The position numbers and the translations under genes were made by a program. The notes under the pieces are model-generated. The model was given only the letters and a program-made list of their open reading frames with translations, did not search any database and was not told the DNA's origin. Shown here piece by piece: positions 53,270 through 64,000 of a DNA stretch of 64,000 bases. Each line of letters begins with the position of its first letter. Position 1 is the stretch's first letter. The DNA is from Flavobacterium sp. Root420 (GTDB lineage: Bacteria > Bacteroidota > Bacteroidia > Flavobacteriales > Flavobacteriaceae): the NCBI RefSeq assembly GCF_001427905.1, contig NZ_LMEF01000004.1:8752-72751 (forward strand), written 5' to 3'.

Positions 53270-55900
53270 ATGAAAAAATCAATCACTCTTTATCAAATCA
53301 TACTATTTTCTTTTCTTTCAATCTATGCTAGTGCACAGGATAAAAAAGAGAAATTTCCTTTTCAAAATACAACTTTAAGCTTTGAAACCAGAGTAAACGA
53401 TCTTGTAAACCGTTTGACTTTGGAAGAAAAAGTTTCGCAAATGCTGAATTCATCCCCGGCAATTGTGAGATTAGACATTCCGGCTTACGACTGGTGGAAT
53501 GAAACACTTCATGGTGTTGCAAGAACTCCTTTTAAAACCACTGTATATCCGCAGGCTATTGCCATGGCAGCCACTTTTGATAAAAATTCGCTTTTTAAAA
53601 TGGCCGATTATTCCGCTTTGGAAGGAAGAGCGATTTACAATAAAGCGGTTGAGTTAGGCCGAACCAATGAACGTTATCTTGGCCTTACGTACTGGACACC
53701 CAATATCAATATTTTTCGTGATCCTCGTTGGGGACGCGGACAGGAAACCTATGGCGAAGACCCGTTTTTGACTGCTACTTTAGGCGATTTCTTTGTTAAA
53801 GGATTACAAGGAGATGATCCAAAATATCTAAAAGCCGCAGCCTGTGCGAAGCATTATGCCGTTCACAGCGGTCCTGAACCTTTACGCCATACTTTTGATG
53901 TTGATGTAACGCCTTATGAACTTTGGGATACCTATTTACCAGCATTTAAAAAATTGGTAACCGAATCTAAGGTTGCCGGTGTAATGTGTGCGTACAATGC
54001 TTTCAGAACACAGCCTTGTTGTGCCAGCGATATTTTGATGACGGATATTTTGCGCAAGCAATGGAAATTTGATGGTTATGTAACTTCAGATTGTTGGGCG
54101 ATTGACGATTTCTTCAAAAATCATAAAACACATCTGGATGCGGCGTCTGCTTCTGCAGATGCAGTTTTCCATGGAACGGATATTGACTGCGGAACAGACG
54201 CTTACAAAGCTTTGGTACAAGCAGTAAAAACCGGAAAAATACCGGAATCACAAATTGATATTTCGGTAAAACGACTTTTCATGATTCGTTTCCGATTAGG
54301 AATGTTTGATCCTGTCGAAATGGTAAAATATGCCCAGACGCCAGCTTCTGTATTAGAAAGTGCCCCACATCAGGAACATGCTTTAAAAATGGCCCATCAA
54401 TCGATGGTTTTGCTTAAAAATGAAAACAATACGTTGCCTCTGAGTAAAAAAATAAAAAAGATAGCAGTTCTGGGTCCAAATGCAGATAATTCGATTTCTA
54501 TTTTAGGGAATTACAACGGAACACCTTCCAAACTATCAACTGTGTTACAAGGCATTAAAGATAAATTAGGCGCCAACACTGAAGTGATTTATGAGAAAGC
54601 CATCAATTTTACAAACGATACCTTATTAGTGTATGCTGATGTTAAAAACCAATATGCTTTTGAAGGTAAACAAGGCTTTAAAGCGGAATATTTCAATAAC
54701 AAGGATCTTGCAGGAAAACCTGAAGTTACAAGGATAGAAACGGAATTGAATCATTTTTGGCAGGAAGGCCAGGCGGTTGTTCAAAACATCAAAGCCAATA
54801 ATTTTTCGGCGCGATATACGACCAACTTTACGGCAGCTGAAGATGGAAGCATTACTTTTGAACTGGCTGCAGACGACGGCTACCGTTTTCTTGTAAATGG
54901 AAAAGAAGAACTAAATGCCTGGTCAAAAAACAGATGGGGCGGACAAACTTTTGAACTGAAAACAACAAAAGGAACTGCTTATAATTTGGTAGTGGAATAT
55001 TGGCAGGGAGAAGGAAAAGGTAACGTTGCCCTGAATGCCGGAAATTATAAAAAAACCGATTTTACAGCGCTTGTCAATCGCTTAAAAGATGTAGATGCAT
55101 TTATTTTCGTCGGCGGAATTTCACCTCAATTAGAAGGTGAAGAAATGAAAGTAAATTTTCCGGGTTTTAAAGGTGGAGACCGTACTTCGATTTTATTGCC
55201 AGCGGTACAAACTGAATTGATGAAAGCACTTCAAAAGACAGGGAAACCAGTTATTTTCGTCATGATGACCGGAAGCGCAATCGCTATTCCGTGGGAAGCT
55301 CAAAATGTTTCTGCTATTGTAAATGCGTGGTATGGCGGACAGGCAGCCGGAACAGCCGTGGCGGATATTCTTTTTGGAGATTATAATCCGGGTGGAAGAT
55401 TGCCAATTACGTTTTACAAAGGCGACTTGGACTTACCTGAATTTGTAGATTATAAAATGGATAACAGAACCTATCGTTATTTTAAAGGAACTCCACTTTA
55501 CAGTTTTGGATACGGTTTGAGTTATACTACCTTCAAATATGATGAGCTAAAAATGCCATCGAAAATTGCTAAAGGAAAAAACATTTCAGTTTCTGTACGC
55601 ATCACCAATACGGGCAAAATGGCCGGAGAAGAAGTAGCGCAATTGTATGTCATCAATCAAAATACAGCTATAAAGGCGCCTCTTAAAACCCTAAAAGGAT
55701 TTGAGCGCATCAGTCTTAAAGCAGGAGAAAGCAAAATCATATCTTTTACACTTTCTCCGGAAGATTTATCTCATGTTACTGCTGAAGGTGTTTATCAGGA
55801 ATACAATGGCGAGATTAAAATTGCCATTGGCGGTCATCAGCCGGATGAACCTAATAAATCAAGCAGTACTATTTTGACTAAAAGTCTTGTGATTCAATAA
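53270..55900 (+). CDS. GH3 beta-xylosidase/glucosidase with PA14 insert
   Basis: 876 residues with a signal peptide ending near ASAQ. The GH3 N domain has PQAIAMAATFDKN and the nucleophile Asp274 (YVTSDCWAIDDFF). A PA14 domain is inserted at about residues 460-590 (GFKAEYFNNKDLAGKPEVTR). The C domain follows (WYGGQAAGTAVADILFGDYN) and a fibronectin type III-like end. The layout is typical of periplasmic beta-xylosidases of xylan loci. It is transcribed away from the other locus genes, with site D upstream. Confidence 0.93.
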   Translation: MKKSITLYQIILFSFLSIYASAQDKKEKFPFQNTTLSFETRVNDLVNRLTLEEKVSQMLNSSPAIVRLDIPAYDWWNETLHGVARTPFKTTVYPQAIAMAATFDKNSLFKMADYSALEGRAIYNKAVELGRTNERYLGLTYWTPNINIFRDPRWGRGQETYGEDPFLTATLGDFFVKGLQGDDPKYLKAAACAKHYAVHSGPEPLRHTFDVDVTPYELWDTYLPAFKKLVTESKVAGVMCAYNAFRTQPCCASDILMTDILRKQWKFDGYVTSDCWAIDDFFKNHKTHLDAASASADAVFHGTDIDCGTDAYKALVQAVKTGKIPESQIDISVKRLFMIRFRLGMFDPVEMVKYAQTPASVLESAPHQEHALKMAHQSMVLLKNENNTLPLSKKIKKIAVLGPNADNSISILGNYNGTPSKLSTVLQGIKDKLGANTEVIYEKAINFTNDTLLVYADVKNQYAFEGKQGFKAEYFNNKDLAGKPEVTRIETELNHFWQEGQAVVQNIKANNFSARYTTNFTAAEDGSITFELAADDGYRFLVNGKEELNAWSKNRWGGQTFELKTTKGTAYNLVVEYWQGEGKGNVALNAGNYKKTDFTALVNRLKDVDAFIFVGGISPQLEGEEMKVNFPGFKGGDRTSILLPAVQTELMKALQKTGKPVIFVMMTGSAIAIPWEAQNVSAIVNAWYGGQAAGTAVADILFGDYNPGGRLPITFYKGDLDLPEFVDYKMDNRTYRYFKGTPLYSFGYGLSYTTFKYDELKMPSKIAKGKNISVSVRITNTGKMAGEEVAQLYVINQNTAIKAPLKTLKGFERISLKAGESKIISFTLSPEDLSHVTAEGVYQEYNGEIKIAIGGHQPDEPNKSSSTILTKSLVIQ

Positions 55901-56076
55901 AAAATTAACTAAAAAAATCAGTTTTAAATCGGGAATAAATGAAAGAATAATACCATTTTTTTTCTAAATTTGATTGTACAAATTGGCATTCAAAACGATT
56001 TCCCCAAATCATTTTTTTAATTACCTCAACCTGCATTGACCATTTGGTAAATAGTAGTAATGTAAACTGAAAAAAA

Positions 56077-57702
56077 ATGAAAAATTTTACTCTGACAATC
56101 TTTTTAATTTCTTGCTTTATTGTTTCTTCCTTCGGGTATTCGAAAGAGAATCGTCTTTCCGGGAATAAGAAAGCAGTTTTTTTTATTCCCAATATTTCTT
56201 TTGATAACTATGCCGCGCCAACTATTGACAATGCCACCTTGTTGGCCTTTTTTAAAAAATATTCCCAATTAAAAGACTATCAAAACGATGTTTCAGCCCT
56301 TTATAAAGACAGATCGTATAAAGCCATTTGGTACAGTGGGAATGACATAAACGAATTTGGGCATTTAATGTATCATAAGTTAAATTCAACTTATGAAGAA
56401 GGCGTTCAGATTAAAATTCCCTATAAAAATAAAATCGATGAGGTTTTTGATGAAGATTCAACTGATAAAGTGTCAGAATCAGACACCGAACTTTTATTGA
56501 GCTCTATGTACATCCTTTATGCGAAACATGTGTATCAGGGAATGGATGCAGCTGCACAGAATAAACTTGAATGGTATTTGCCAAAGAAAAAAATATCGTA
56601 TGAGACTTTATTAGATTCTATTTCCAGTAATCCGAATTTGTTAGATCAAAATAATCATGTGCTTTTTAGTCAATATTATAAACTTCAGGAAGTTCTTAAA
56701 AAATATCGTGAAATCGAAAAGAACAATACCTGGACTACAATTGAAATGGATACGCCTTTTAAAGATTTAAGGCCAGATGACACCTCAAAAACAATTGCAC
56801 AAATCAGAACACGATTGTTTGTTATTGGTGACTTAGCGAATGATTCTAAAAGCAACTTTTATGATCGGGAACTGATGGATGCCATCATGAAGTACAAAGC
56901 TAGATATGTGCTGACTCCAAACTATATTATCACCAAAGATCATATCAATCAAATGAATGAACCTATAAGTGATCGTATCAAAACGCTGATGTTAAACATG
57001 GAGCGCTGCCGATGGATTCCACCAACCCTGGAAAACCAAAGCGAATATGTTATGGTTAATATTCCGTCATTTCGATTATATTATGTTAGAAACGGGAATT
57101 ATGATATTGTCTCCAATGTTTTCATAGGAACACCCTTAACCCAAACTGTTATTTTTAGCGGTCAAATAGATCGTATTGTTTTTAGTCCGTATTGGTATGT
57201 GCCGAGCAGCATCATTAAAAATGAATTAAAATTGAAAATGGCAGAAGAGAAAAACTATCTGGCCGATCATAATATGGAATGGAATGGAGGAAAAGTACGG
57301 CAAAAACCCGGACCTAATAATGCCTTAGGCTTAGTGAAATTTATGTTTCCGAATCCGAATGATATCTATATGCACGACTCCCCTTCTAAAAGTTTGTTTG
57401 GTTTTGAGAAACGTATTTTCAGCCACGGTTGCATCAATGTCGAAAAAGCAAAAGAACTGGCTATTGCAATGCTAAGGGATTATCCGGACTGGCCGGTTGA
57501 CAAAATAAATGAAGCTATGAGTGGCGTAAAAGAAACGCCTTGCATGCTAAAGAAAAAAGTACCAATTTATATTGGTTATTTTACCGCCTGGGTTAACAAA
57601 GATGGTGAAATTGGATTTTTTCCCGATGTTTATGAAAGAGATGTTCAGTTGAATAGTTTACTTTTTCCGCAGGATACTGGTTTTAAGACTGCTAATAATT
57701 GA
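56077..57702 (+). CDS. L,D-transpeptidase (YkuD/YcbB-like)
   Basis: 541 residues with a signal peptide (MKNFTLTIFLISCFIVSSFG). The YkuD catalytic domain lies near residues 330-490. The motif FSHGCINVEKAKELA has the nucleophile Cys452, and an upstream His-Asp block is YMHDSPSKSLF. The N-terminal region (about 40-240) looks like the scaffold and peptidoglycan-binding parts of YcbB-like enzymes. It forms 3-3 cross-links or attaches proteins in peptidoglycan. It is probably a housekeeping gene next to the xylan locus. Confidence 0.93.
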   Translation: MKNFTLTIFLISCFIVSSFGYSKENRLSGNKKAVFFIPNISFDNYAAPTIDNATLLAFFKKYSQLKDYQNDVSALYKDRSYKAIWYSGNDINEFGHLMYHKLNSTYEEGVQIKIPYKNKIDEVFDEDSTDKVSESDTELLLSSMYILYAKHVYQGMDAAAQNKLEWYLPKKKISYETLLDSISSNPNLLDQNNHVLFSQYYKLQEVLKKYREIEKNNTWTTIEMDTPFKDLRPDDTSKTIAQIRTRLFVIGDLANDSKSNFYDRELMDAIMKYKARYVLTPNYIITKDHINQMNEPISDRIKTLMLNMERCRWIPPTLENQSEYVMVNIPSFRLYYVRNGNYDIVSNVFIGTPLTQTVIFSGQIDRIVFSPYWYVPSSIIKNELKLKMAEEKNYLADHNMEWNGGKVRQKPGPNNALGLVKFMFPNPNDIYMHDSPSKSLFGFEKRIFSHGCINVEKAKELAIAMLRDYPDWPVDKINEAMSGVKETPCMLKKKVPIYIGYFTAWVNKDGEIGFFPDVYERDVQLNSLLFPQDTGFKTANN

Positions 57703-57748
57703 TTTTTTTTTAGAGAATAGAAGAAAGAGCAAAGAGTAAAGAGTATAG

Positions 57749-57787
57749 AAACCGCCAAAATCACAAATGATTTTTGGCGGTTTTTTT
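57749..57787. terminator. Shared terminator between L,D-transpeptidase and next gene
   Basis: AAACCGCCAAAAATC / GATTTTTGGCGGTTTTTTT. The stem includes the 3' end of the minus gene at 57786. It has T-runs on both strands. Confidence 0.8.
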
Positions 57788-58763
57788 ATTTTTTGGGGAC
57801 ACTTTTTTCTCCGTATTTGTTTATGATATAATCCGTTACTGGCCTTAACGGCTTATCATTTTCAGGATGTCTTCCGTGTGTATTAAAGAAATCTGCTTTA
57901 TCACTACTTGTTTTTGCATACCAAACAATTGCTTCTCCATTTATAAAGCAGGTTGTCGTATCGCAGACTTTTATTTTTTTAAGTCCAAACTTACTTTCAT
58001 CAAATCGTTCTATTTTTCCCGACATTACAAATCCTTCGGTATTTTGATCACAATCTACCATTTCAAAATGATCATTGGACCATTGCATGCATTGTTTTTG
58101 TGATAGGGCAAAATAAATAATTAAACCTAATCCAATTAAAACAACTGTAATTGCTAAGTATTTTATTTTTTTTAATATTGATTCCTTGCCTTTAGTACTA
58201 AAAGTCGATATTGGCATTGATGCTAATTCAGTTTTCTGATTGTCAAGCGGTTCGGATTCTTCCAGAACAAAATCTTTTTTTGAATCGTTTGGGTTTTCGA
58301 TTTCTACTTTGTCACTCCAAATATCAGAAGAAACATCTTTACCAGAATTATCATTAACTCTCAACTCATTTATCAATTCTAAATCTTCTTCATCTATTTG
58401 TTTCCTAAATTTATTAAAAGGTCTTGGTTGAAGGTCCACAAGTATTGCGGCCAATTGAATAGTATCTTCGGTTGGCCTCTCTGTCTTACCTAAAAAAAAT
58501 CTCTTAACTGCTTCTAATTTATTCAGCTCATCATCTCCAAACAAATTCTTTTTATCCCTATCAAATGGAAAATCAAAAAAAGATTCAAAAGTAAGTAAGT
58601 CCTCTTTATTAGTGTTTGATGTAAATCTTTTGATGCATAAATTTCTAAGGTTTGCAGCAGTTGGCGAACTCAAATTATTTGAATAATCCCCTTCAATTTC
58701 TTTTTCATATTTGGCTTTAATAGCTTTTCTGTAATCTTCAAAAGTAAAGTTTGACATAGGCAT
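57786..58763 (-). CDS. Membrane protein of unknown function
   Basis: 325 residues from 58763 (MPMSNF), with a second possible ATG at 58757. The N-terminal 120 residues are charged and cytoplasmic-looking (FTFEDYRKAIKAKYEKEIEG and LCIKRFTSNTNKEDLLTFES). A linker follows, then one membrane helix at about 200-220 (IKYLAITVVLIGLGLIIYFA). The C-terminal 100 residues are outside and carry four Cys (CMQW, VDCDQ, VCDTTTC). Its topology resembles a signal-transducing anti-sigma or sensor protein, but I do not recognise a family. Its upstream region holds the ACTT array at 58768-58874. Confidence 0.75.
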   Translation of the reverse strand: MPMSNFTFEDYRKAIKAKYEKEIEGDYSNNLSSPTAANLRNLCIKRFTSNTNKEDLLTFESFFDFPFDRDKKNLFGDDELNKLEAVKRFFLGKTERPTEDTIQLAAILVDLQPRPFNKFRKQIDEEDLELINELRVNDNSGKDVSSDIWSDKVEIENPNDSKKDFVLEESEPLDNQKTELASMPISTFSTKGKESILKKIKYLAITVVLIGLGLIIYFALSQKQCMQWSNDHFEMVDCDQNTEGFVMSGKIERFDESKFGLKKIKVCDTTTCFINGEAIVWYAKTSSDKADFFNTHGRHPENDKPLRPVTDYIINKYGEKSVPKK

Positions 58764-58767
58764 TTGA

Positions 58768-58874
58768 ACTTTTTAAAACTTTTTCTAAAGTACTTTATTC
58801 TACTTTTTAGGACTTCTTTTGACTTCCTAGAACTTATCCCGACTTTAAAAAAATACATTAGACTTTCCTGACTT
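58768..58874. promoter_or_regulatory. ACTT array with 10-bp period
   Basis: ACTT starts at 58768, 58778, 58792, 58802, 58812, 58822, 58832, 58842, 58862 and 58871. The middle run (58792-58842) is strictly 10 bp apart, so all copies face the same side of the helix. It lies directly upstream of the minus-strand gene's start and may be a cooperative binding site. Its nature is inferred. Confidence 0.5.
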
Positions 58875-59167
58875 TCTGATCAATACAGCCCTAAACTCCA
58901 CATAAATTTGCCTTAACAAAATTAGTTAACGTTTTGGTCTGCAGGTCAAAACAAATGTACAAAACTAGTTCACTTAAAAAGTATGGAAAACCGTAAGACG
59001 GAGTTTATCCGGGAAGTATAAATAAAATCTTACTGTTCTACATACTTCACTTCCCAAACAAAAATTCAAAAACATTCCGCAGGGTGCGGTTTGAAAATCA
59101 GCACAAAAAAATTCGATTTCATTATCGAACAGGCTGATCTACGTCCAATTTTTAACAACGAAGTAAG

Positions 59168-59356
59168 ATGAAAAAAGTTTATATATTAGCGTGTTTAGTT
59201 GCCAGTGGGGCATTCGTATCTTGTACAAATGATGAAGAAACATCAGATAACAAGTCTGCAACTGAAGTAAAAAAAGAAATTAGTCCTGCAACTCCATCCT
59301 ATGCTGATGGTCCTGGAGATGATCCAATCATTATTCAGCCACCAAAAAAAGACTAA
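59168..59356 (+). CDS. Small lipoprotein, possible peptide signal
   Basis: 62 residues. The leader MKKVYILACLVASGAFVSCT carries a lipobox ending at Cys19. The mature part is short and unstructured, with DNKSATEVKKEISPATPSY and the tail DGPGDDPIIIQPPKKD. It lies 52 bp upstream of the TPR histidine kinase gene on the same strand. Small genes of this kind upstream of TPR-kinases recur, as far as I recall, in flavobacteria. The possibility that it is the sensed peptide or a precursor is my inference. Confidence 0.75.
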   Translation: MKKVYILACLVASGAFVSCTNDEETSDNKSATEVKKEISPATPSYADGPGDDPIIIQPPKKD

Positions 59357-59408
59357 TTAAAAATCTTTAGTACATAATAAATAAGTAATTTCGGGGAAAG
59401 TAAATTAA

Positions 59409-61115
59409 ATGTTACGATCCCCGATTTTTTGTTTGCTTATCTTTTTCTTCCTTATTTCTTGTAAGGACAAAACTCCTATAAGCACTACTGTAAATCCAAA
59501 TAAAAAAGAAGCCTCTCTTTTACAGGAAAAAGCAATAGCTCATTTCCAAAAAAGTAATTTTAATACTTCCTTTTATAATTTTAATAAATCAAAAATAGCT
59601 TTTGAGAAATTAAAAGACAGTAGTAATATCTCTTTTAACCTCATCCAGATGGCATATATTCAGCAAATGAATGGGGATTATTATGGAAGCAAAGAAACAT
59701 TGACAGAAGCTTTGCCTTATATCCGAAAAGACAAAAATTATCTTGCAGCTGTAAACAATTTTTTTGGGATTGCTGATAAGGAACTTTCTATTTATGACGA
59801 TGCAATTTACTATTACAGTGAAGCACTAAAAGGTGTAAAAGACGAATCATCGAAACAAGCTCCTTTAAATAATATTGCAGTCGTTTATATTCAGCAGAAA
59901 AAATATGACAAGGCAATAAAAATCTTAGAATCACTCCTAAATAAAAATTCATCACTTGCTAAACCACCAACAAAAAGAAAACTTAGAATTTTAGATAATC
60001 TTGGTTTCGCTTATTTTAAAAAAGGAATGAATGAAAAAGGACTCGCGTTAATGCTAGAAAGTCTTAATCTTAGAAATCAAACTGAGGATGTTTACGGAAG
60101 TATCGAAAGTTGTTTACATTTAGCCGAATACTATTCAAAAACCGATACTAAAAAATCAAATCAGTATGCTCAATTGGCTTATCAAAATGCTACAAAACTC
60201 AATAGTATTGATGAACGATTAGAAGCTTTATCATTTTTAATGACAAACAATTCTATTCGCAATACAACATATGCTCAAAAATATGTTTTTTTGAATGACA
60301 GTATTATCAAAATCAGAAACAACTTCAAGAACAAATTTGCCAAGATTAAATATGATTCGAAAAAAGAGAAAGATGAGAATCAAAAACTTCGCTTGGAAAA
60401 AGCGGAGAACTTATTGGCTCTTAAAGATGCGGAAAAAGAAAAAATCATATTTATTGCCACTTTCATTATACTTTTATTTTTGGGGGCGTACTTGAAAAAA
60501 CACTTAGACAACAGAAATCGAATCGGAAAAATTAAAACAGCATACGATACCGAAACCAGAATTGCTAAAGATATTCACGATGAATTGGCAAATGACGTTT
60601 TTCATGCTATCACTTTTACCCAAACGCAACCTTTAACAAACGAAAACACGAAAGAAACTTTAATTCAAAAACTGGATCATATTTATACCCGCGTTCGTGG
60701 AATTTCGAAGGAAAACAATGATATTGATACCGGAGAAAATTTCTCAGCCAATTTAAAAGAAATGCTTTCTACTTATAATAGCAACACAACAAATGTGATT
60801 ATTAATAGTATTGAAAAAATAAATTGGGACGCAATTGATGACATAAAAAAGATTGCTGTTTATAGGGTTTTGCAGGAATTAATGGTGAATATGAAAAAAC
60901 ATAGCGCTGCATCGAGAGTAGTGGTGAAATTTGACAGCAATCAAAAAATGATAATTATTGACTACGTAGATGATGGTCAAGGCAGTATAAAAAATAAAAT
61001 TAACAAAAATGGCCTCCAAAATATGGAAAACCGTATTCTGGCTATAAAAGGATCTATTATTTTTGACACTGAACCAAACAAAGGTTTTAAAGTAAAAATA
61101 ACGCTGCCTAAATAA
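59409..61115 (+). CDS. TPR sensor histidine kinase
   Basis: 568 residues. The N-terminus is a lipoprotein-like leader (MLRSPIFCLLIFFFLISCKD). TPR repeats span about 35-280 (for example DDAIYYYSEAL and YDKAIKILESL). A coiled coil (about 300-335) precedes the membrane helix (341-360). The HisKA_3 motif IAKDIHDELANDVFHAITF contains His390, and HATPase follows with VLQELMVNMKKHS, DDGQG and GLQNMENRI. The TPR domain lies outside and could bind a peptide. The response regulator is 7 bp downstream and forms its pair. Confidence 0.93.
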   Translation: MLRSPIFCLLIFFFLISCKDKTPISTTVNPNKKEASLLQEKAIAHFQKSNFNTSFYNFNKSKIAFEKLKDSSNISFNLIQMAYIQQMNGDYYGSKETLTEALPYIRKDKNYLAAVNNFFGIADKELSIYDDAIYYYSEALKGVKDESSKQAPLNNIAVVYIQQKKYDKAIKILESLLNKNSSLAKPPTKRKLRILDNLGFAYFKKGMNEKGLALMLESLNLRNQTEDVYGSIESCLHLAEYYSKTDTKKSNQYAQLAYQNATKLNSIDERLEALSFLMTNNSIRNTTYAQKYVFLNDSIIKIRNNFKNKFAKIKYDSKKEKDENQKLRLEKAENLLALKDAEKEKIIFIATFIILLFLGAYLKKHLDNRNRIGKIKTAYDTETRIAKDIHDELANDVFHAITFTQTQPLTNENTKETLIQKLDHIYTRVRGISKENNDIDTGENFSANLKEMLSTYNSNTTNVIINSIEKINWDAIDDIKKIAVYRVLQELMVNMKKHSAASRVVVKFDSNQKMIIIDYVDDGQGSIKNKINKNGLQNMENRILAIKGSIIFDTEPNKGFKVKITLPK

Positions 61116-61122
61116 AAGCCAT

Positions 61123-61791
61123 ATGTTTAAAAAAGTAATTATAGCCGAAGATTTCGATAGTATTAATTTAGGAATTGAACAAGTTTTAAAAGATCTTGGT
61201 ATTGTAGATTTTCAACATTCAAAATATTGTGATGATGCTTTTCTAAAAATACGAAGAGCCATTCAGGACAATGAGCCATATGATTTATTGATTAGTGATT
61301 TGTCATTCAAGGCAGATTCTCGCAATTCAACAATTGCCAGCGGTGACGACTTAATACAACAAGTTCGTGAACTGCAACCCAATATCAAAATCATAGCTTA
61401 TTCTGTCGAAGATAAAAGTTATCGTATAAGATCTCTTTTTGAAAACCCGGAAATCGATGGTTATGTTTTAAAAGGCAGAAATAGTATCGAAGAACTTAAA
61501 AAAGCGATCCATATTATTTCAACCTCTGATCAAACCTTTATTTCGCCAGAAATTGCTTCTGCTTTACAAGATAAAAACAACTACGAAATAGATGATATTG
61601 ATATTTTGATTTTGAAGCATTTATCACTTGGAACTCCGCAAGATGATATTATACAAATTCTAAAAGACTCCGGCATAAAACCCAAGAGTAAAAGTGCTAT
61701 GGAAAAAAGACTTTCTAAATTAAAAGACTTTTTTAAAGCTAATAATACGGTTCATTTAGTTTCTATTACTAAAGATATGGGGATTATTTAG
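61123..61791 (+). CDS. Response regulator with LuxR-like C-terminus
   Basis: 222 residues. The receiver (1-125) has the acidic residues E9-D10, the phosphoacceptor D59 (LLISDLSF) and Lys117 (YVLKGRN). The C-terminal part (about 155-215) has a degenerate helix-turn-helix (LKHLSLGTPQDDIIQILKDS, SKSAMEKRLSKLKDFF). It acts with the upstream TPR kinase, with a spacing of 7 bp. The target genes are unknown. A terminator follows at 61814. Confidence 0.92.
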   Translation: MFKKVIIAEDFDSINLGIEQVLKDLGIVDFQHSKYCDDAFLKIRRAIQDNEPYDLLISDLSFKADSRNSTIASGDDLIQQVRELQPNIKIIAYSVEDKSYRIRSLFENPEIDGYVLKGRNSIEELKKAIHIISTSDQTFISPEIASALQDKNNYEIDDIDILILKHLSLGTPQDDIIQILKDSGIKPKSKSAMEKRLSKLKDFFKANNTVHLVSITKDMGII

Positions 61792-61813
61792 ATCTCATTC
61801 CTATATAATTTTC

Positions 61814-61837
61814 AAAGCTCCTTCGGGGGCTTTTTTT
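61814..61837 (+). terminator. Terminator of the TPR-kinase operon
   Basis: AAAGCTCC-ttc-GGGGGCTTTTTTT, 22 bp after the response regulator stop. Confidence 0.75.
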
Positions 61838-61948
61838 ATTTCTGAAAACTAAATTTCACGATTATGGATTTCCGTAAAATACTGATTTCAAATAGGTTTA
61901 AGTTTGAATTATAAATTAATTTAAACATTCATTTAAACCAAAAAAATC

Positions 61949-62182
61949 ATGGAATATAAAGTAGTACCATTTGTCGCCACAATTGATCCAATTAAAGGAA
62001 CTTCTGAACATGTTGCCGAACAACTTGAAAGTATGATAAAACATTTTACTAATCAAGGTTGGGAATATGTTCGTTTAGAAGGCGTATCAACATTTGTTCA
62101 TCCAGAAACTGGTTGTTTTGGCCTGGGAGCTAAACCTGGTTATACAACAACTAGACAAATGGTTGTTTTTCAAAAAAGATGA
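61949..62182 (+). CDS. Small DUF4177-like protein
   Basis: 77 residues. MEYKVVPF, a central helix SEHVAEQLESMIKHFTNQGW and EYVRLEGVSTFV resemble the DUF4177 pattern (start with YKVV, then L...NQ.G.EGWEL). It has no signal peptide. It overlaps the next gene by ATGA (62179-62182), so translation is likely coupled. The function is unknown. Confidence 0.75.
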   Translation: MEYKVVPFVATIDPIKGTSEHVAEQLESMIKHFTNQGWEYVRLEGVSTFVHPETGCFGLGAKPGYTTTRQMVVFQKR

Positions 62183-62460
62183 AACATCTAATACTCTTTG
62201 CTATTAAAATGTATTGGAATTGCATTCCCTCAGCTAAAAGAAAAAAATGCATTTTTAAAAAATCCTGTTCCAATTATGTATTTGAAGTAACTCAAAAAGA
62301 AGGGTTCATCAGTGGATTGAAAGCTCTTCGTTTTCGATATCAAAATTGCAGAGGAAACTTTCAAATTTTCAAAAATCCAATAGATAACAAAATACTAATG
62401 ATTCTTCCTTCTCAAATAATAATTGAGAGGGAAGAAATTGCTGAAAGATTAATCAATTAA
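62179..62460 (+). CDS. YidD-like protein
   Basis: 93 residues with the YidD motif in variant form: KCIFKKSCSNYVFEVTQKEG and then FISGLKALRFRYQNC. Normal YidD has CRF.PSCS.Y..EA...HG and RL.RC. The C-terminal half of YidD (GG.DPVP) is replaced by NFQIFKNPIDNKILMILPSQ. Genuine YidD promotes membrane protein insertion, and this may be an accessory paralogue. It overlaps its upstream neighbour by 4 bp. Confidence 0.75.
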   Translation: MKHLILFAIKMYWNCIPSAKRKKCIFKKSCSNYVFEVTQKEGFISGLKALRFRYQNCRGNFQIFKNPIDNKILMILPSQIIIEREEIAERLIN

Positions 62461-62470
62461 AATCAAAATC

Positions 62471-62677
62471 ATGAAAAATTATTATGTAAACAAAAACGCG
62501 CAATCAAATGGAGATCATGAAGTTCATACAGATGATTGCAAATATTTGCCAATTGCAGCAAATAGAAAATCCTTAGGAGAATTTTCAAACTGTAAACCTG
62601 CAGTAACAGAAGCAAAGAAAACCTATTCACAATCGAATGGCTGCAAAACTTGTTGTGAGGATTGCCATACAAGCTAA
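62471..62677 (+). CDS. Small Cys/His-rich protein
   Basis: 68 residues with MKNYYVNKNAQSNGDHEVHT followed by DDCKYLPIAANRKSLGEF, SNCKPAVTEAKK and the end NGCKTCCEDCHTS. Conserved Cys and His at regular places suggest metal binding, but the fold is not known to me. It has no signal peptide. It belongs to the tight run of small genes. Confidence 0.75.
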   Translation: MKNYYVNKNAQSNGDHEVHTDDCKYLPIAANRKSLGEFSNCKPAVTEAKKTYSQSNGCKTCCEDCHTS

Positions 62678-62682
62678 AAATC

Positions 62683-62913
62683 ATGGGCTTTCGATTTCAA
62701 AAAAGAATCAGACTTGGAGGAGGACTCGGATTAAATATTAGTAAATCCGGAATTTCTCCAAGCTTAAGAACAAAAATGGGAACATTTAGCAAAAACGGTT
62801 ATTCTGTAAAAATAGGTATATCAGGAATGAGATACCAAAATAGCGGCTGTATCGTATTATTTGCATTTACAGGAATCATAACATTTTTAATTTTCACACT
62901 AAAACATTTATAA
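62683..62913 (+). CDS. DUF4236 protein with membrane helix
   Basis: 76 residues from the ATG at 62683 (MGFRFQKRIRLGGGLGLNIS). This is the start of DUF4236, with KSGISPSLRTKMG. A hydrophobic helix follows at about residues 55-72 (NSGCIVLFAFTGIITFLIF). An in-frame ATG at 62662 overlaps the previous gene and is less likely. The start NSGCI of the helix resembles that of the next gene (NSGCILIF). Confidence 0.75.
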   Translation: MGFRFQKRIRLGGGLGLNISKSGISPSLRTKMGTFSKNGYSVKIGISGMRYQNSGCIVLFAFTGIITFLIFTLKHL

Positions 62914-62915
62914 TC

Positions 62916-63245
62916 ATGGGATATAGAAAAGGATATTATAAAAAAGACGGAACTTATGTTCAAGGACATTTCGCTAATACACGATCAAGATCTTATACGA
63001 AGAAAAATAGCGGATGCATACTTATTTTTTTGCTATCAGTATTAATAGGCTCTGTAATTTCTTGTTCGGAATCTTCAGAGACATCAGATGTAACAAGCAA
63101 TACTCCAAGTTCAAATTGTCCAACCAAAACTTGCAGTGATTTTTCATCTCAATCTGCAGCACAATCTGCCTATAACAGCAATAAAACCTGTTATAAAAAC
63201 TTAGATTCTGATGGCGATGGAACAGCATGCGAAAATTTAAAATAA
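62916..63245 (+). CDS. Excalibur-domain protein
   Basis: 109 residues. A basic N-terminus (MGYRKGYYKKDGTYVQGHFA) is followed by a membrane helix (NSGCILIFLLSVLIGSVISC). A Ser/Thr-rich linker leads to a C-terminal Excalibur calcium-binding domain (residues about 72-109: CSDFSSQSAAQSAYNSN and DSDGDGTACENLK). It begins 2 bp after the preceding stop. The domain has an extracellular-type calcium loop; the function is unknown. Confidence 0.85.
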   Translation: MGYRKGYYKKDGTYVQGHFANTRSRSYTKKNSGCILIFLLSVLIGSVISCSESSETSDVTSNTPSSNCPTKTCSDFSSQSAAQSAYNSNKTCYKNLDSDGDGTACENLK

Positions 63246-63257
63246 AAAAATCAAACA

Positions 63258-63653
63258 ATGATAACACTAGAACTAAAAAGTCATTTTCTAAGATTATATC
63301 AAATGGCATTATCAGATGATCGATTTGATGTATTAGAATTGCAAATGATGTATCATTTTGCCGACGAAAGAGGAATTCCGAGAGAAGAATTGGATAAACT
63401 TTTCCTAAATCCAATTAATACGGAGTTTATTGTTCCTGAAGATTTGAATACCCGTATTGAATATTTATATGATTTTACAAGAATCATTTGGGCCGACGAA
63501 AAAATTACTGATGACGAATTAAATATGCTCAAAAAATATTGCAGGAAATTTAATTTTTTGGATGAAAACATTAATGAACTTTCTTCCTACCTCATTGATT
63601 GTGTTCAGAAAAATATACAGAAGGAAGAAATTATTAGTCAATTAAATTCTTAA
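63258..63653 (+). CDS. TerB-like helical protein
   Basis: 131 residues, all-helical, without signal peptide. DDRFDVLELQMMYHFADERG and WADEKITDDELNMLKKYC show the two acidic DxxxxxEL segments of the TerB/DjlA-N fold. The family is often found in stress or defence-associated gene clusters. It starts 12 bp after the Excalibur gene. Confidence 0.65.
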   Translation: MITLELKSHFLRLYQMALSDDRFDVLELQMMYHFADERGIPREELDKLFLNPINTEFIVPEDLNTRIEYLYDFTRIIWADEKITDDELNMLKKYCRKFNFLDENINELSSYLIDCVQKNIQKEEIISQLNS

Positions 63654-63656
63654 GTT

Positions 63657-64000
63657 ATGAAATCACTTACACAACTATTCAGTATAAAAAAAGCTGACGA
63701 TTCTTCTGTCAAAACTTTTGATGACAATGAAGAAGACAGAGAACAAATAAGAATAACCTATTATCAAAGCGGATTTGCAGCTTCAGTAAAAGCAACCGGA
63801 AAACCTATTGTTTTAAAAGCATGTCTGCAAAATCTCTATATGAGTTTTGAAGATCAATGCCGAAAACAAAAATTAGAACAGGACAGGTTAAAACAGCCTT
63901 ACCGAGAAGAACAGGAAAAAAACAGAACTGAGCTTAAAAAATCTGAAGCCGCAATAGGAATTTTTGAAAAGAAAGAACAGGATATTAATGATGAAATTGA
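63657..64000 (+). CDS. Coiled-coil protein of unknown function, C-terminus outside window
   Basis: It starts at the ATG at 63657 (MKSLTQLFSIKKADD), 3 bp after the TerB-like stop, and is open to the window end (114 codons). From residue about 68 it is a long charged coiled coil (CRKQKLEQDRLKQPYREEQE). The rest is missing, so no function can be assigned. Confidence 0.7.
   Translation, partial: MKSLTQLFSIKKADDSSVKTFDDNEEDREQIRITYYQSGFAASVKATGKPIVLKACLQNLYMSFEDQCRKQKLEQDRLKQPYREEQEKNRTELKKSEAAIGIFEKKEQDINDEI

Follow-up and report, generated by a model that had tools for sequence, protein, structure and literature searches.

We analysed a stretch of 64,000 nucleotides from Flavobacterium sp. Root420 (assembly GCF_001427905.1, contig NZ_LMEF01000004.1, positions 8,752–72,751 of the forward strand), referred to below as the window, with attention to a gene cassette on its forward strand. 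The cassette starts with a gene for a small lipoprotein of 62 amino acids (59168..59356), which is followed after 52 bp by a gene for a histidine kinase of 568 amino acids with tetratricopeptide repeats (TPR; 59409..61115) and, 7 bp further, by a gene for a response regulator of 222 amino acids (61123..61791). An intrinsic-terminator-like hairpin was recognized in the sequence at 61814..61833 of the same strand. An earlier note on this DNA had described this layout, and every element of it was found as described. Three features were absent from that note: an invariant cysteine (Cys18) in the signal of the kinase, a divergently oriented gene (57786–58763), and a structured leader RNA (58917–59058) upstream of the small gene.

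An alignment of the kinase alone was searched against named genomes, and the upstream DNA was inspected for the best 80 of 436 matches, which represent 78 distinct loci (kinase-first loci). A small lipoprotein-like gene was located upstream of the kinase in 76 of the 78, so the linkage in relatives on which the earlier note had beforehand made its proposal depend was present. The gap between the two genes was 49–70 bp in 72 of the 73 loci where it was measured; the exception, L089, is affected by the call of the kinase start. One locus (L106) lacked the small gene, and its kinase had only 425 residues; in L112 the small gene was present as a decayed copy, and in L069, counted among the 76, the lipobox cysteine was lost. 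Two copies of the small gene stood in tandem before one kinase in L157, L158, and L159. The regulator lay directly behind the kinase in 46 of the 78 loci and was absent from this place in 32. Some genomes had one regulator-linked and one regulator-less locus, including Flavobacterium sp. Root420 itself (second locus at C4:82427, L025). Among 20 other kinases of the same genome taken as a control, a single one had an upstream small open reading frame passing the lipobox pattern, and by eye this one was not lipoprotein-like. Alignments A4 and A8 comprise 44 and 41 of the 78 loci, respectively, each together with the window.

The small protein of the window has the lipobox FVSC, an export-signal-like motif C-T-N-D-E-E, a variable linker, and an acidic Gly-Pro tail, ADGPGDDPIIIQPPKKD. 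Seventy-five small proteins were tabulated; those of L093 and L105 fell outside the pattern, though their small genes exist. Counted from the cleavage site, the residues of the 75 proteins read C-T-A/P-D-E-Y/F-E/D-T, with Cys in 74/75, Asp+4 in 75/75, and Glu+5 in 67/75; the motif GP[GDE][DE] was present in all 75, and the mature part was 33–60 residues long. The N-terminal motif resembles, offset by one residue, the surface-export consensus SDDFE at positions +2 to +6 given for F. johnsoniae (PMC5080379). Segment identities were calculated for 300 sampled pairs of regulator-linked loci, observed vs. shuffled. The signal (0.68 vs. 0.34), the export-signal segment (0.71 vs. 0.37), and the tail (0.59 vs. 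0.39) were conserved, and identity of the linker was only 0.37 vs. 0.28. Judged from these sequence comparisons, the gene arrangement is more than chance, because of the linkage, the control kinases, and the segment conservation.

The conserved gene order and the close spacing also bear on another explanation, by which the lipoprotein always accompanies the kinase as a structural partner or an inhibitor, in the manner of QseG with QseE, and some other cue acts as the signal. The gene logic is the same as that of qseEGF as described in PMC12691602 and PMC6075780. QseG acts through a C-terminal domain, whereas much of the short mature part of the present protein is variable linker, and the tandem small genes of L157, L158, and L159 fit dosage better than a fixed stoichiometry. 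We regard this explanation, drawn by analogy, as unlikely.

Pfam recognized TPR repeats in the kinase of the window. The HATPase_c domain scored just below the cut-off (24.2 vs. 26.4 bits) and above it in the genome search (28.6 bits). The kinase has one hydrophobic stretch at approximately residues 343–361, and by inspection the TPR part lies between the N-terminal signal and this sole stretch, which makes a location of the TPR domain outside the membrane a sound prediction. Cys18 of the kinase signal, itself a lipobox, was invariant in 45/45 rows of alignment A4; therefore, the kinase is probably lipidated too in the Flavobacterium group. By eye, four of six loci of other genera (L234, L236, L237, and L238) encoded a kinase with an ordinary signal start. 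In the AlphaFold model (mean predicted local distance difference test score, pLDDT, 80; predicted template modelling score, pTM, 0.51), TPR helices at residues 30–280 were followed by a long helix at 286–406 that reaches the kinase part via the presumed membrane stretch. The nearest structures were LGN/Pins, a TPR superhelix determined in complex with its partners, for the modelled TPR part and DesK for the kinase part, in which His390 was assigned from the motif. The response regulator gave a Response_reg match below the cut-off (E 8e-6; 26.4 vs. 30.2 bits), and its C-terminus was DUF5932-like, likewise below the cut-off.

Approximately 250 bases upstream of the small gene were unusually conserved. 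From the window sequence and single-sequence folds we derived a structure for an element of 142 nucleotides (58917..59058, forward strand), whose helices, counted by hand in the window, are P1 (58920–58927/58963–58970), P2 (58931–58937/58946–58952), P3 (58979–58985/59041–59047), P5 (58990–58998/59028–59036), and P5b (59004–59008/59018–59022). The structure also includes a pseudoknot, P4 (GGGAAGT with ACTTCCC; 59011–59017/59049–59055). In 70 of 75 cases, the 3' end of the RNA lay 77–90 nucleotides upstream of the ATG. The sequence TAAATTTG (58903..58910, forward strand), which starts 17 nucleotides upstream of P1, resembles the Bacteroidetes −7 box, and a box resembling TAnnTTTG (loose pattern) started 14–18 nucleotides before the RNA, that is, before P1, in 55 of the 59 relatives examined. 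Behind the element, a second, variable hairpin region of the leader (59059..59167, forward strand) reaches to the start codon; its folding z-score was −1.9, and 10 of 200 shuffles folded as well.

Covariation was assessed in three sets of sequences. The first was a plain MAFFT alignment (A6) of 42 distinct sequences chosen from 106 pattern rows, which include opposite-strand artefacts; L012, entered there under two names, was counted once. In this set 87.4% of pair cells were standard, 23 of the 43 pairs were changed on both sides, and the covariation score was 0.171 compared to 0.091 in shuffles. With 74 sequences aligned to the model, 90.8% of pairs were standard, 34/43 were changed on both sides, and the score rose to 0.316 (0.127 shuffled). 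The third set (A10), 45 matches from other genera and from a second family of the same order, comprised 44 loci and, from the opposite strand of L234, a weak second match that was kept for the covariation score; here 84.7% of pairs were standard, 37/41 were changed on both sides, and the score was 0.475 against 0.173. None of 500 shuffles scored as high in any set, and with slid partners pairing fell to 30–51% across the three. The 74- and 45-sequence alignments were fitted to P1–P5b; P4 cannot be represented in the model and took no part in the fit. It was paired in 98.3% and 99.6% of cells, respectively, with compensating changes at three positions in each. The covariation thus exceeds that of shuffles, and the element has a fixed place before one gene. 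Comparison of sequences therefore establishes the element at 58917–59058 as a structured cis-leader RNA. A search of Rfam 15 with window positions 55000–64000 and eight further loci returned no match to it at E up to 1. The palindrome GTTTTGGTCTGCAGGTCAAAAC was also considered as a DNA operator and rejected: in relatives its place is taken by different sequences in which the pairing is preserved, and one position of P1 is as a rule occupied by a U-G pair (34/42). A total of 64 structured 5' regions have been reported in F. psychrophilum (PMC9723704), and the leader RNA may be among them, unnamed.

The genome of Flavobacterium sp. Root420 contains the RNA in three places: once in the window and, as a tandem pair, ahead of the second small gene (L025:3795–4345, two leader RNAs before one small gene); tandem pairs likewise occurred in G115, G131, G214, and G230, among the matches listed. 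Searches, whose E-values the tool itself describes as rough, detected the RNA in 125 of 249 genomes of the genus, in 31 of 349 genomes of the family (own genus included; 28 of 237 genera, refined model), and in 56 of 346 genomes of the order, 25 of these in the second family. We inspected 65 loci found through the RNA (RNA-first loci; 64 are distinct, as L308 is identical to L307): 20 of the genus, taken by eye where no small-gene match was among those listed, 27 of the 28 matches in other genera (G406 left out), and 18 of the 25 in the second family. Behind the RNA, 64 of the 65 encoded a small protein that was intact and looked exported, the remaining one (L226) being frameshifted. The kinase was found at 63 of these loci, with a frameshift in L214. 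Conversely, the RNA was not found in 6 of the 77 sources searched: L106 and L125, both without the small gene, and L126, L160, L161, and L167.

The two RNA-first loci without a kinase in the inspected stretch, L225 and L318, keep the RNA and the peptide, and thus favor the possibility that the small gene merely travels with the operon and acts elsewhere, e.g., as a surface coat or adhesion peptide, with the RNA serving that role. The linkage, however, spans two families, and in L106, which has neither small gene nor RNA, the kinase is truncated. We consider a mere passenger role very unlikely.

The lipobox cysteine with a nearby acidic motif, characteristic of surface lipoproteins of Bacteroidota (lipoprotein export signal), was found in the Flavobacterium members, for which a surface location is predicted, and not in all members of the cassette: the 18 small proteins of the second family have no clear lipobox. 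These start with a short uncharged hydrophobic stretch similar to MIQFILMLLGLAF or MLNLILILLGLIS, and end in tails that are Gly/Asp-rich and mostly Pro-ended; most of these tails are TGG-rich with Pro and Lys, e.g., DTGGETGQTPPPKK, as are those of several Flavobacterium members. In the first family outside Flavobacterium, the tails were CCGEDG.LPPPPPP or purely acidic. As far as these sequences can tell, the lipid anchor is dispensable in evolution, and an acidic or Gly-rich, often Pro-ended tail persists. Since the second family loses the lipobox but keeps the tail, the tail looks like the working part of the protein, the part that is read.

The same proteins bear on the idea that the lipoprotein is a sentinel of the envelope, which probes the surface-export route. 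If export failed, the protein would stay behind at the inner membrane, where contact with the TPR kinase would set off a repair response. The export-signal-like residues are the most conserved part of the small protein (Cys, Asp+4, and Glu+5, as counted above), the signal of the kinase itself carries an invariant Cys in Flavobacterium, and NlpE offers a precedent for the Cpx system (PMC6538781). Yet the 18 second-family proteins keep a related tail, RNA, and kinase without a clear lipobox. Lipoprotein sorting therefore cannot be the general purpose of the cassette, and this persistence of the tail lowered our estimate for a watch on lipoprotein sorting; by analogy with the known sentinels we rate it as rather improbable.

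Distances between small proteins were compared to those between kinases in 46 loci. With the kinase domain corrected for, the mature small protein tracked the TPR domain (partial r 0.27, p 0.001), and the signal peptide did not (partial r −0.004, p 0.52).

Several loci with related arrangements were observed besides those with the leader RNA. In Flavobacterium sp. Root420 itself (contig C21, L125:5956–12163), three tandem kinases of this family, followed by one regulator, lie beside a putative rplT gene; two of the three kinases have broken C-termini. In some relatives (L027, L031, and L033), a cassette is located near the same putative rplT gene. On contig C5 of the same genome (L126:3637–6045), a different TPR kinase, which is lipobox-like if an upstream non-ATG start is taken, is preceded by an exported-looking protein of 85 amino acids that is unrelated in sequence. 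Loci L160 and L161 contain tandem arrays of six and seven 57-amino-acid lipoproteins, and all 13 proteins end with TDPIIIPKKD. The arrays precede a different TPR kinase (29% identity to that of the window) and a regulator, without the leader RNA. By its sequences, this is a second family of the same logic with strong tail identity. In L167 (5252–5521), a single lipoprotein of 89 amino acids with a different, longer tail stands before a TPR kinase flanked by genes like those of L160 and L161. The codon pattern of the DPIII tail occurred in five places of the Root420 genome vs. three for the control and was uninformative.

The divergent gene (57786..58763, reverse strand) encodes a membrane protein of 325 amino acids with a helical N-terminal domain (residues 8–137), a disordered stretch, a predicted transmembrane helix (196–220), and a C-terminal beta domain (224–317). 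Nothing above thresholds was found for it in Pfam, NCBIfam, or PADLOC, its fold had no match in PDB (best E 1.9), and models of defence systems matched neither this protein nor the kinase. The gene was present at 60 of the 78 kinase-first loci, including 44 of the 46 with a regulator, where both misses have <770 bases of upstream DNA. All 65 RNA-first loci encoded a relative of the protein on the other side, though in L309 and L315 it was partial, and the C-terminal domain is present in some occurrences of the protein and absent from others.

Between the divergent gene and the RNA lies a promoter region (58764..58895) with degenerate GACTT/GGAAT-like repeats at approximately 10-bp spacing. Autocorrelation over 86 stretches (86 of the 106 pattern rows) was 0.38–0.41 at lags 9–10 and 0.36 at lags 19–20, vs. 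0.28 in shuffles, corresponding to a periodicity of 9.5–10 bp. Tandem Repeats Finder reported no array in this region. A search of the Root420 genome with a pattern of three spaced GACTT motifs had no match, and the pattern was too strict, since it missed even the array of the window. We infer from these sequences that the phased repeats are a candidate binding array for the response regulator. Downstream of the cassette, positions 61949–63998 of the window encode a DUF4177-like protein, an Excalibur-like small protein (by eye), and proteins of 131 and approximately 422 amino acids; these genes recur next to the cassette in several relatives.

The linkage of the genes, the conservation of the tail, and the RNA with its structure are established by comparison of sequences. 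The mechanism that we infer from them involves membrane topology, binding of the tail to the TPR domain, the transcript start, autoregulation, and switching of the RNA. The cassette would form a signalling unit closed in itself. Its small protein would be exported, as a lipoprotein bearing an export-signal-like motif in the case of Flavobacterium and with a different N-terminus in the second family, and its acidic or Gly-rich, mostly Pro-ended tail would be displayed outside the inner membrane. There, the TPR groove of the partner kinase would bind the tail, and the kinase would read either the amount or the location of the tail. The signal would pass via the DesK-type core to the response regulator, which would probably exert feedback through the phased repeats of the shared promoter, while the pseudoknotted leader RNA at the 5' end of the message would gate production of the small protein. 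This reading, in which the TPR domain senses the exported tail of its own cassette and the leader RNA gates the supply, has in our judgement an even chance of being correct. The earlier note had proposed that the lipoprotein or its released tail is sensed. This idea gained from the linkage (76/78), from the conservation of the tail relative to the linker, from its survival of lipobox loss, and from the closeness of the TPR model to LGN/Pins; sensing of the tail, its release, and its sharing between cells stay at the level of proposals.

A number of observations weigh against this reading. The control kinases are mostly of different architectures, and some of their start sites are doubtful. Being drawn from related species, the 78 loci are not 78 independent events. 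The divergent gene was found at only 16 of the 32 loci without a regulator, the three-kinase cluster of L125 has neither this small gene nor the leader RNA, and L225 and L318 keep the RNA, the peptide, and the divergent protein with no kinase in the inspected stretch. The RNA of the window alone folds no better than shuffles (z −0.85; reverse strand −1.54); since this folding energy alone is not significant, the case for the RNA rests on covariation, and P1 and P4 hardly vary in the plain alignment. The tail varies in sequence and is low-complexity. The distance correlations are suggestive rather than proof, because tests of this type can be liberal. Their Mantel signal (r 0.33) is modest, and after correction for the TPR domain the small protein tracks the kinase domain as well (partial r 0.155, p 0.004). 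Finally, export to the surface would carry the lipoprotein out of the periplasm, the predicted site of the TPR domain. The export-signal-like motif, predicted to take the Flavobacterium protein to the surface, speaks against a simple pheromone in particular, as do L225, L318, and L125.

Peptide signalling is well studied in Gram-positive bacteria. In RRNPP receptors (Rap, PlcR, Rgg), a TPR domain binds a short exported peptide; these receptors are soluble and cytoplasmic, and the peptide is reimported. The cassette would share with them the TPR domain as the proposed peptide binder, but its TPR part is predicted, from sequence and model, to lie outside, behind a signal or lipobox and before a hydrophobic helix, and is joined to a kinase. 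In the RcsF–Rcs system, a sensor of the inner membrane responds to the passage or place of a lipoprotein. QseE is not known to have a TPR sensor, and QseF belongs to the sigma-54 regulators with an AAA+ domain; the regulator of the cassette differs in having no AAA domain (in Pfam only receiver-like and DUF5932-like parts). QseE/QseG/QseF resembles the cassette in that an outer-membrane lipoprotein, encoded with the kinase and the regulator, is described as being in direct contact (PMC12691602); a lipoprotein gene beside kinase and regulator genes was found here too, though in 32 of the 78 loci the kinase is not directly followed by a regulator. A leader RNA is not mentioned for QseEGF in the abstracts of PMC12691602 and PMC6075780. 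In NlpE–Cpx, the passage or place of a lipoprotein is reported to be read by an inner-membrane sensor (PMC6538781); the cassette differs from the NlpE and RcsF sentinels in that the second family keeps a related tail without a lipobox and in the architecture of the kinase. PorA–PorXY of Porphyromonas is likewise a two-component system of Bacteroidota dependent on a surface protein (PMC7712824), but PorA is a type IX C-terminal-domain protein with a folded domain. Flavo-1, 6S-flavo, and the other Bacteroidetes motifs listed in PMC2864571 are also conserved RNAs of the same bacteria; the leader RNA differs in that it had no match in the Rfam search described above. By analogy, the cassette appears most similar to kinases assisted by a lipoprotein, such as QseE/QseG, or to NlpE–Cpx if it is trafficking that the kinase reads, combined with the binding logic of TPR peptide receptors.

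In the open full-text literature, judged by titles and abstract openings, we found no description of the cassette or of the RNA and no equivalent of Gram-positive peptide signalling in Bacteroidota. The data suggest an undescribed peptide-sensing switch in this bacterial group. The leader RNA makes the finding more interesting than the earlier note supposed, and the observation is larger than stated there. The RNA is strongly supported, has no Rfam match, and its only clients in the inspected loci are genes of this two-component cassette; its role is therefore directly testable. Moreover, the candidate ligand, the receptor domain, and the leader RNA are now defined by coordinates in a genus in which gene deletion is described as routine (F. 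johnsoniae, PMC11885536). Tentatively, and with some doubt on our side, the RNA could represent a new class of regulatory RNA in at least two families of one order that serves clients of one kind only, peptide ligands of TPR kinases. An internal signal read by the RNA would then be converted into an external peptide signal that is read back by the kinase, the first such design of peptide signalling in Gram-negative bacteria, possibly acting between cells. If this is true, a family of TPR kinases would gain a function.

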